Shown piece by piece: positions 15,207 to 18,349 of a DNA stretch of 64,000 bases. Made by a program: the position numbers and the translations under genes. The notes beneath the pieces were generated by a model, which was not told the DNA's origin, searched no databases, and saw only the letters and a list, made by a program, of their open reading frames with translations. The stretch's first letter is position 1. Every line of letters starts with the position of its first letter. The stretch is from Blastococcus sp. URHD0036 (GTDB lineage: Bacteria > Actinomycetota > Actinomycetes > Mycobacteriales > Geodermatophilaceae): contig NZ_JNIK01000005.1 in assembly GCF_000701365.1 (NCBI RefSeq), positions 124,001 through 188,000 on the forward strand. The letters are read 5' to 3'.

Positions 15207-15923
15207 ATGGCGGCCCTGCTCGCGCCCATGGAGGCGGCCGCGGACCCGGCGCGGTTCTTCCTGGGCACCTACCTGCGCACCACGCGGGCGGTGGGCGCGG
15301 CCCTGGACGCCGGGCTGTTCGAGGAACCGGGCTGGGTCACGACCTGGGACGTGGACTTCGCCGGGCTCTACCTCGACGCGCTGGAGGCGCACGGCCGCGA
15401 CCCGGCGAGCGCGCCGGAGCCGTGGCGGGAGGCGTTCGGGACGCGCGCCGCGGCCCGGCCGGAGGCGCACGTGCTCCTCGGCATGAACGCGCACATCAAC
15501 TACGACCTGCCGCAGTCCCTGGTGCGGGTCATCCCGCCCGCCGACTTCGCCGATCCCGCGGTGCACGCCGCCCGCGAGCGCGACCACGAGCGGATCGACG
15601 GCGTGCTCGCCGGCCGGGTCGCCGACGAGGACGCCGCGCTGCAGGCCGCGGGGAGCCGGCGCACCGTCGTCGACCGGCTGGCGGCGGGGCTGAACCGCGG
15701 GGCGGCGCGGGTGCTGCTGCGCGAGTCGCGGCGCAAGGTGTGGGCCAACGCCAACGCGCTGCACGCCGCCCGGCTGCGCGGACCCGACGCGCTGACCGCC
15801 CGTGTGGCGGAGCTGGAGCGGCTGAGCGCGGCCCGGGTCGCCGACCTCCGCCGTCCCGGGCCCGTCCTGCTGCGGCTCGCGGTGCGCGGCTTCGGCGTCA
15901 CGCTCCCGCCGGGCGGGGCATAG
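15207..15923 (+). CDS. DUF5995 family protein
   Basis: The product has 238 residues from ATG 15207. The family signature LLGMNAHINYDLPQSLVRV lies near the middle, and the fold is predicted all-helical with no signal peptide. The function of DUF5995 is unknown. The histidine-rich motif MNAHINYD and the downstream acidic helices could bind metal, but this is a guess. The start is uncertain. ATG 15207 has GAGGAG 12 nt upstream. However, conserved residues (IEELVDRM) extend back to a CTG at 15174 that overlaps the regulator's stop as CTGA. Co-transcription with the pucR-like gene is likely. Confidence 0.8.
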   Translation: MAALLAPMEAAADPARFFLGTYLRTTRAVGAALDAGLFEEPGWVTTWDVDFAGLYLDALEAHGRDPASAPEPWREAFGTRAAARPEAHVLLGMNAHINYDLPQSLVRVIPPADFADPAVHAARERDHERIDGVLAGRVADEDAALQAAGSRRTVVDRLAAGLNRGAARVLLRESRRKVWANANALHAARLRGPDALTARVAELERLSAARVADLRRPGPVLLRLAVRGFGVTLPPGGA

Positions 15924-15975
15924 GAAGCTCCCCCCACGTTTAGAGTGCGAGGACGTAGGGAGAGCTTCCTATGCC
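15917..15975. terminator. Bidirectional terminator-like stem around the DUF5995 stop codon
   Basis: GGCATAGGAAGCTC (15917-15930) is perfectly complementary to 15962-15975, with CCC/GGG pairing just inside. The stop TAG of the upstream gene lies in the left arm, and the right arm abuts the stop of the convergent MurA-like gene. Confidence 0.7.
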
Positions 15976-17520
15976 TCAGTCGTGGAAGACCTCGATGGAG
16001 GCGCCCATCTCCACCAGCCGCTCGTAGAGGTGCTCGTAGCCGCGGGCGATGATGTCGACGTTGCGCAGGACCGACGTGCCGCGGGCGGCGAGCATGCTCA
16101 GCAGCAGGCAGACGGCCGGGCGCAGCGCCGGCGGGCAGACCACCTCCGCCGCGCGCCACCGGGTCGGGCCGGTGATCAGGACGCGGTGCGGGTCGAGCAG
16201 CCGGACGTCGGCGCCCAGGCGGGTCAGGTCCGACAGGTGGATGGCCCGGTTGTCGTAGACCCAGTCGTGGATCATCGTCGAGCCCTCGGCCGCCGCCGCG
16301 ATGACCGCGAAGAACGGCAGGTGGTCGATGTTGAGGCCCGGGAACGGCATCGGGTGGATCTTGTCGATCGGTGCCTTGAGGTCCGAGGGCTGGATGGTGA
16401 TGTCGGCCAGCCGGGTGTGGCCGTTGGCGGCGCGGTACTCCGGCGACAGCGAGTAGCGCAGCCCCATCTCGGACAGGACGGCGAGCTCGATCTCCAGGAA
16501 CTCCAGCGGCGCGCGGCGGACCGTCAGCTCCGACCGGGTGACGATCCCCGCGGTGAGCAGGCTCATCGCCTCCACCGGGTCCTCGCTGATCGTGTAGTCG
16601 ACGTCGGCGTCGAGCACCGGCCGGCCGCGGACGACCAGCGTCGTCGTCCCCAGGCCGTCGATCTGCACGCCGAGCAGCTGCAGGTACAGGACCAGGTCGT
16701 GGACCATGTAGTTGGAGCTGGCGTTGCGGATGGTCGTGGTGCCGTCGGTGCGCGCGGCCGCGAGCAGCGCGTTCTCGGTCACGGTGTCGCCGCGCTCGGT
16801 CAGCACGATGGTGCGGTCGACGGTGGTGGGGGGCGACACCGTGGCCTGGTAGTGGCCGGCGTGGGCCTCGATCTCCAGGCCGAACCGGCGCAGCGCGATC
16901 ATGTGCGGCTCGACGGTGCGGGTGCCGAGGTCGCAGCCGCCCGCGTAGGGGAGCCGGAAGCTGTCGGCGCGGTGCAGCAGCGGGCCGAGGAACATGATGA
17001 TGCTGCGGGTCCGCCGGGCGGCGTCGGCGTCGATGCCGTCGAGGTTGAGTTCGGCGGGGACGACGAGGGTCAGGTCGTGGCCGGCGGTGTCCCACACGGC
17101 GGAGACGCCGATGGAGCGGAGCACGTCGAGGATCCGCTCCACCTCGACGATGCGGGCGACGTTGCGCAGGGTCGTGCGCCCGCGGTTGAGCAGTGCGGCG
17201 CACAGCAGCGCGACGGCGGCGTTCTTCGAGGACTTGACGGTGACGCTGCCCTGCAGCGCGGTGCCGCCGGTGACCCGGAGGTGGGTGGGTCCGGTCGGCC
17301 CGACGGTGATCAGCTCGCTGTCGAGGGCCTCCGAGAGCCGGCCGAGGAGTTCCAGGGTCAGGTTCTGGCCGCCCTGCTCGATGCGGGCGACGGCGCTCTG
17401 GCTGGTGCCGAGCCGCTCGGCCAGCTGGGCCTGGGTCAGGCCGCGGTGCTGGCGCGCGTCGCGGACGAGCGCTCCGATGCGACGCATGGCGGTGTCGACG
17501 GGCTGTTCGATGAGCGTCAC
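15976..17520 (-). CDS. XRE helix-turn-helix fused to MurA-like enolpyruvyl transferase
   Basis: The product has 514 residues. Residues 12-67 form an XRE-type helix-turn-helix (GLTQAQLAERLGTSQSAVAR). From about residue 78 the protein is a full UDP-N-acetylglucosamine 1-carboxyvinyltransferase. The substrate lysine is in SSKNAAVALL, and Cys196 in AGGCDLGTR matches the fosfomycin-target cysteine of MurA. The usual GAKN is changed to SSKN, and GARPVD to GTRTVE, so activity may be altered. Such fusions are known in actinobacteria beside a normal MurA. The GTG at 17520 is 7 nt after a TACGGT -10 box that abuts a TATCTC/GAGATA palindrome, suggesting autoregulation. An in-frame ATG at 17541 lies inside that palindrome and is less likely. 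Confidence 0.88.
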   Translation of the reverse strand: MTLIEQPVDTAMRRIGALVRDARQHRGLTQAQLAERLGTSQSAVARIEQGGQNLTLELLGRLSEALDSELITVGPTGPTHLRVTGGTALQGSVTVKSSKNAAVALLCAALLNRGRTTLRNVARIVEVERILDVLRSIGVSAVWDTAGHDLTLVVPAELNLDGIDADAARRTRSIIMFLGPLLHRADSFRLPYAGGCDLGTRTVEPHMIALRRFGLEIEAHAGHYQATVSPPTTVDRTIVLTERGDTVTENALLAAARTDGTTTIRNASSNYMVHDLVLYLQLLGVQIDGLGTTTLVVRGRPVLDADVDYTISEDPVEAMSLLTAGIVTRSELTVRRAPLEFLEIELAVLSEMGLRYSLSPEYRAANGHTRLADITIQPSDLKAPIDKIHPMPFPGLNIDHLPFFAVIAAAAEGSTMIHDWVYDNRAIHLSDLTRLGADVRLLDPHRVLITGPTRWRAAEVVCPPALRPAVCLLLSMLAARGTSVLRNVDIIARGYEHLYERLVEMGASIEVFHD

Positions 17521-17527
17521 GGGACCG

Positions 17528-17549
17528 ACCGTATCTCGCATGTGAGATA
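17528..17549 (-). promoter_or_regulatory. -10 TACGGT plus operator-like palindrome TATCTC-N6-GAGATA
   Basis: The -10 box (17528-17533) ends 7 nt before the GTG of the XRE-MurA gene. The palindrome 17532-17549 overlaps its upstream edge. It matches its reverse complement at 16 of 18 positions, with CATG at the centre. The divergent SDR gene starts 57 bp away. Confidence 0.6.
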
Positions 17550-17605: not shown

Positions 17606-18349
17606 ATGGACATCCTCGTGACGGGGGCCTCCGGACGGCTCGGCCCCTCCCTCGTGCAGGCGCTGCAGGCCGACGGCGACCGGCTGCGGCTGATGTCGCG
17701 GCGCGGAGCCGGCCCCGGCGGTGTGCGCGGGGACCTGGCCACCGGCTTCGACCTCCGCGACGCCCTGGCCGGCGCCGAGGTCGTCGTGCACGCGGCCAGC
17801 GACCCGACCAACGCCTGGGAGGTCGACGTCGCCGGGACCCGGCGGCTGGTGCAGGCCGTGGACCGGGACCGGCTGCGGCACCTGGTGTACGTGTCGATCG
17901 TCGGCGTCGACCGGATCCCGTACGGCTACTACCGCGCCAAGTACGCCGCCGAGCAGGTGCTGCTGGCTTCCGGCCTGCCGCTGACCATCGTGCGGATCAC
18001 CCAGTTCCACGGCTTCGTCGACGAGCTCCTCGCCACGGCCCGCAAGGGGCCGGTGCTGCCGGTCCCCATGGGCTGGCGGGTCCAGCCGGTCGACGTCGCC
18101 GACGCCGGCGCGTACCTCGCTCAGGTGGCCCGGCAGCAGCCGACCGGGGACGTCGTGGAGTTCGGCGGACCGGAGGAACTCGCCGTCGCCGACATCGCCC
18201 GCGCGTGGGTGGCCGCCCGCGGCGGTGGCGGGCACGTGGTCTCCACGCCGGTACCCGGGCGGCTCAGCACCGCCGTCCGGGACGGCGCGGCGCTGCCCTC
18301 CGGCCGGGACCGCGGACGGCGCACGTACGCCGCCCATCTGGGCGGATGA
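17606..18349 (+). CDS. Atypical SDR / NmrA-like NAD(P)-binding protein
   Basis: The product has 247 residues. The N-terminal nucleotide-binding loop is MDILVTGASGRLGPSL (GxxGxxG type), followed by DVAGTRRLVQAV and a degenerate active-site region YYRAKYAAEQVL. The architecture matches atypical short-chain dehydrogenases of the NmrA/NAD(P)H-epimerase-like group. These are often sugar-nucleotide or redox-sensing proteins, and the substrate is unknown. It is divergent from the XRE-MurA gene, and the palindrome between them could control both. A DMT-type transporter gene follows after 62 bp with its own promoter. Confidence 0.82.
   Translation: MDILVTGASGRLGPSLVQALQADGDRLRLMSRRGAGPGGVRGDLATGFDLRDALAGAEVVVHAASDPTNAWEVDVAGTRRLVQAVDRDRLRHLVYVSIVGVDRIPYGYYRAKYAAEQVLLASGLPLTIVRITQFHGFVDELLATARKGPVLPVPMGWRVQPVDVADAGAYLAQVARQQPTGDVVEFGGPEELAVADIARAWVAARGGGGHVVSTPVPGRLSTAVRDGAALPSGRDRGRRTYAAHLGG

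Follow-up and report, generated by a model that had tools for sequence, protein, structure and literature searches.

The HTH-MurA fusion gene of Blastococcus sp. URHD0036 (15979–17520, minus strand) most probably encodes a bifunctional "trigger enzyme", an active MurA predicted to repress its own gene (probability about 0.77). It lies in a 64,000-nucleotide stretch of contig NZ_JNIK01000005.1, referred to here as the window. Both halves of this reading, enzyme and regulator, are supported by comparative sequence analysis. Autoregulation of the fusion gene, already suspected in the initial annotation of the window, is strongly supported by a conserved operator, its fixed register and its co-degeneration with the recognition helix, and the sign of this autoregulation is probably repression.

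The fusion gene and its promoter

The fusion gene is monocistronic by position. It encodes a protein of 514 aa from a GTG start at 17520, its own stop codon occupies 15976–15978, and it has known orthologues. The initial annotation had described an XRE helix-turn-helix (HTH) fused to a complete MurA-like enzyme, and the Pfam matches bear this out. Residues 19–69 match HTH_3 (17314–17466, minus strand; E 3.5e-14), an XRE-type HTH with its recognition helix, TSQSAV, at about residues 39–44, while residues 83–502 match EPSP_synthase (16015–17274, minus strand) over the full profile (1–417 of 417; E 9.9e-48). Immediately 3′ of the stop codon, in the gap that separates the fusion from a convergent gene, is a large inverted repeat with 23-nt arms and a 13-nt loop (15917–15975), which is likely a two-way terminator. 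On the promoter side, the nearest gene is a divergent NAD(P)-binding/SDR gene (17606–18349, plus strand), whose regulation by the fusion is putative. No widely shared neighbour, and thus no conserved operon context, was found among the fusion orthologues.

The predicted operator, TATCTCACATGCGAGATA (17532–17549, minus strand), is an 18-bp palindrome conserved in orthologues, with arms TATCTC and GAGATA around a central ACATGC and symmetry at 16 of its 18 positions. The −10 element TACGGT (17528–17533, minus strand; TANNNT) had been said to touch this palindrome. The two in fact overlap by two bases, the last two of the palindrome being the first two of the −10 element. The GTG codon follows 7 nt after the −10 element, which fits a leaderless promoter, and transcription of the fusion is accordingly predicted to start at the GTG itself. 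An operator over the −10 of the fusion's own promoter is also in the place expected for autorepression, as had been proposed. When the 64-kb window was searched for the palindrome with up to two mismatches, the fusion promoter was the single matching locus (mean of 0.06 in shuffled sequences).

Conservation of the operator and the recognition helix

Lack of conservation of the palindrome upstream of orthologous fusions had been named beforehand as a refuting result, and the palindrome proved to be conserved. Allowing no more than one mismatch, it is retained in 97 of 106 orthologous loci from the class Actinomycetes, including Streptomyces murA2 (SCO5998), compared with 2 of 2120 shuffled upstream regions. 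It is also found in 78 of 79 loci of named genomes, with at most one mismatch in all 30 further genomes in which the fusion is the sole MurA, and in families far from Streptomyces. A proximal operator occurs in 102 loci; TANNNT comes next in 99 of them, and the start codon lies 6–8 nt further on in 94. A logo drawn from these 102 operators shows arms that hardly vary, about 0.1 bit in most of the flanking columns, and no conserved −35 element. Some lineages have a changed arm (AACTCA, TGAGTT), and in a few both arms have changed together. The core promoter of the fusion thus contains a conserved palindrome, as expected of an XRE autorepressor.

The genome search that had been suggested for this type of palindrome was run with ATCTCR-N4-YGAGAT and returned exactly one perfect site in the 5.18-Mb host genome, at the fusion promoter. 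A single perfect site at that position is also typical of host family genomes, and most Streptomyces genomes likewise have exactly one. Among the sites listed for family genomes that lack the fusion, the ATCTCA type is absent and the sites present are GC-type background. The other perfect sites inspected for a wider regulon are intragenic, near MarR genes or unconserved, and do not make up a regulon common to the genomes. In two Streptomyces loci (L121 and L130), a second perfect palindrome with a different centre, TATCTCGATGTCGAGATA, is located about 260–320 nt upstream of the fusion, and probably serves a different regulator, on the neighbouring gene's side. In two others (L207 and L208), ATCTCAACGTTGAGAT occurs in intergenic DNA beside MarR-like genes and looks like a MarR operator, its centre being unlike that of the MurA2 site.

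The bound fusion could instead activate its own promoter, or co-regulate other genes such as the divergent SDR gene, a proposal to which the location of the site between two divergent genes and the lack of a visible conserved −35 element would lend themselves. This is nevertheless unlikely, as the site overlaps the −10 element, which is a repressing position, and no other conserved target was found in the host, family or Streptomyces genomes. Control of the SDR gene, suggested in the initial annotation, is weakly supported because the operator keeps a fixed register with the fusion's own −10 element and the SDR gene adjoins the fusion in only part of the host's own family. The SDR gene was therefore rejected as a co-regulated partner.

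The solved HTH structures nearest to that of the fusion include HipB and restriction-modification controller proteins. HipB binds TATCC-N8-GGATA (PMC3376134), and the fusion operator, which reads TATCT-N8-AGATA, has the same spacing. The fusion thus resembles HipB/XRE autorepressors in its type of HTH and in operator geometry (5-bp arms, 8-bp spacer), but unlike HipB it has no toxin partner and its HTH is joined to an enzyme. Three full-length loci lack the operator (L029, L178 and L156), and the recognition helix is changed in all three (SQSDV, DQTDV and GMTGTDIEQI), as against 2 of the 102 other loci (Fisher p 5e-5, a value that overstates independence, as two of the three operator-less loci are close relatives). 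One genome in which the fusion is the sole MurA (G746) has lost the operator together with the normal recognition helix. At the level of sequence, operator and recognition helix therefore degenerate together.

MurA2 of Streptomyces (SCO5998, vnz_28735) is an apparent orthologue of the fusion; the Streptomyces loci are about 70% identical and have the same operator, and it is through this orthology that the MurA2 of published work is tied to the loci described here. According to the available portions of the papers concerned, the MurA2 promoter is bound by BldM-WhiI, with the region footprinted in S. venezuelae, and MurA2 is treated as a MurA paralogue, that is, a second MurA (PMC4125116); murA2 is SigB-dependent and monocistronic in S. 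coelicolor (PMC8346170); a DmdR1 site is predicted near murA2 (PMC12161575); and in S. venezuelae exploration, murA2 overexpression did not reproduce the whiI overexpression phenotype (PMC11005364). The HTH domain, the operator and autoregulation go unmentioned in these portions. No description of the HTH-MurA architecture was found in the open-access literature, subscription papers being outside the scope of the search. Since BldM-WhiI and SigB are reported at the murA2 promoter, the operator need not act alone. The BldM-WhiI footprint and the SigB-dependence could also be taken to mean that a different protein binds the palindrome, and that the fusion's own HTH is vestigial or works at other places. 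This explanation is rather improbable, given that in the genomes the operator accompanies the fusion and does not occur elsewhere, that it is found in families far from Streptomyces, that its geometry resembles that of the HipB site, and that it decays along with the recognition helix.

The enzyme domain and its role as a MurA

Residues of the enzyme domain are numbered as in E. coli MurA, whose sequence was checked against 1uae. The catalytic lysine (in the motif SSKN) and Cys196 had been noted as retained amid altered neighbouring motifs, and both observations stand. Host Lys99 and Cys196 correspond to E. coli K22 and C115, and both are invariant among orthologues. Across 105 fusions, the invariant positions are K22, N23, R91, C115, R120, D231, D305, R331, R371 and R397, so that the catalytic Lys22, Cys/Asp115, Arg120, Asp305 and Arg397 of MurA are all present. 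Five positions, D49, S162, E188, E190 and D369, are replaced in every one of the 105, which thus all lack the Asp369 and Glu188 of canonical MurA. The altered motifs have G-D-T in place of S162-V163-G164, N in place of E188 and M in place of E190, with D369 gone, and D123 is changed to E/Q. In the canonical MurAs compared, D49, S162 and E188 are kept throughout, D369 is kept except for one Glu, and E190 is a His in one group. With these five otherwise near-universal positions changed throughout the fusions, the kinetics or the acceptor of the fusion may differ from those of canonical MurA.

In the structure prediction (mean pLDDT 87.9), the two-domain fold is intact and crystal structures of MurA are among its matches; together with the Pfam match, this indicates a full EPSP/MurA fold. 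The domain scores below the cut-off of the murA equivalog TIGR01072 (304.7 vs 392.7 bits) and passes the broader MurA subfamily model NF006873 (316.1 vs 297). In the tree, the fusions form a fully supported monophyletic clade whose stem is long (2.4 changes per site) and whose inner branches are short, a shape read as a single burst of change with strong conservation since. The tree was built without an AroA outgroup, and, with long branches meeting, the position it gives the fusions among canonical MurAs is unreliable. Compared with canonical MurA (E. coli 1uae; TIGR01072), the fusion therefore has the fold and catalytic residues in common, and differs in its added N-terminal HTH, the five replaced positions, its sub-threshold equivalog score and its own long-stemmed clade.

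Most of the host family has the fusion. In the sample of the class it occurs in 115 of 395 genomes (26 of 138 genera), whereas matches outside the class in the phylum sample are canonical-like only. Named carriers include Streptomyces, Cellulosimicrobium, Oerskovia, Promicromonospora, Serinibacter and Klenkia, and in the full-length orthologues the similarity extends over the HTH. With a canonical MurA as query, the fusion is the sole match in 9 of 13 fusion genomes. A search for the EPSP family found at least 40 related, near-complete genomes with just two such genes, the fusion and one other. The second gene is AroA by curated cut-off in all nine of these genomes that were scanned, and MurB is present in all 40. 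As the sole MurA candidate in genomes that contain MurB, the fusion must be the MurA that supplies MurB's pathway, and would make the cell-wall precursor there. In one carrier (G253), the fusion gene (L064; C1:1261843-1263362) is apparently split over two reading frames, and no other MurA was found in that genome; this appears to be a sequencing error or a broken gene.

The initial annotation had favoured an enzyme turned sensor, a reading in which the MurA fold has given up catalysis and only senses UDP-GlcNAc or PEP so as to control transcription. The invariant replacement of D49, S162, E188, E190 and D369, and the long stem of a clade with short inner branches, would suit such a change of function. 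The sole-MurA genomes argue the other way, as their fusions, beside AroA and with MurB, keep the same altered motifs where these were read. So does the invariance of the catalytic Lys, Cys, Asp305 and Arg397. Loss of catalysis is accordingly very improbable.

NikO of the nikkomycin pathway uses an acceptor other than UDP-GlcNAc. It is a MurA-like enolpyruvyl transferase from Streptomyces (4fqd), related to the enzyme domain of the fusion, but it belongs to secondary metabolism and no HTH fused to it was seen in the search results. That the fusion likewise uses another acceptor and is not a MurA is very improbable, for although NikO is among the sequence and fold matches of the domain and the stretch 160–164, which contacts UDP in canonical MurA, is rewritten (S162-V163-G164 to G-D-T, with D123 to E/Q), there are 40 genomes with MurB that offer no other candidate for MurA.

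Proposed mechanism and related systems

MurA is the target of fosfomycin and the gate into peptidoglycan synthesis, and in canonical Cys-type MurA fosfomycin alkylates the catalytic cysteine. In the proposed trigger enzyme, the C-terminal domain would make enolpyruvyl-UDP-GlcNAc, the first committed cell-wall precursor, while the N-terminal XRE domain would bind the palindrome over the −10 element, presumably as a dimer, and so block RNA polymerase at the fusion's own leaderless promoter. Negative feedback would then set the level of MurA, acting on essentially a single target, the fusion's own gene. Occupancy by substrate or product (a PEP adduct on Cys196, UDP-GlcNAc or UDP-MurNAc) might in turn change the affinity for DNA, and repression is perhaps gated by PEP, UDP-GlcNAc or UDP-MurNAc. 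Such gating is plausible, since in canonical MurA Cys115 forms an adduct with PEP, and the enzyme has been crystallised with this adduct and UDP-MurNAc (PMC4790336, structure titles). A more tentative extension, which we consider doubtful, is that fosfomycin, acting through the same cysteine, would directly alter murA transcription.

If the trigger-enzyme reading is true, a self-repressing MurA would be a one-protein homeostat for the supply of wall precursors, and the fusion is the sole MurA in whole genera and the murA2 of Streptomyces. A short, conserved operator that is almost single-copy per genome makes the idea directly testable in model Streptomyces. BirA and NadR also have a DNA-binding domain on a metabolic enzyme, through which they control expression related to their own pathways, namely the biotin and NAD genes. 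The fusion shares with them a DNA-binding domain and a metabolic enzyme in one chain. Unlike them, it is a peptidoglycan enzyme with, as predicted, essentially one target, its own promoter.

The host genome contains a canonical MurA and another full-length EPSP-family gene besides the fusion, the latter being taken to be AroA. With a normal Asp115-type MurA also present, the fusion would serve in the host as a second, self-limited MurA. In the host genus, the canonical MurA (L011) has Asp at the fosfomycin-target position and the fusion (L004) has Cys. A general rule that the fusion is Cys-type and the other MurA Asp-type holds for the host and several families, but was dropped, because the canonical MurA of Streptomyces, among others, is itself Cys-type. 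Three genomes (G679, G614 and G705) have a divergent MurA-like gene alongside the fusion (L200, L201 and L202), with the motif GGCNLGSRNLDFH, or NLGSRKLDFH in one, and this gene is possibly pathway-specific.
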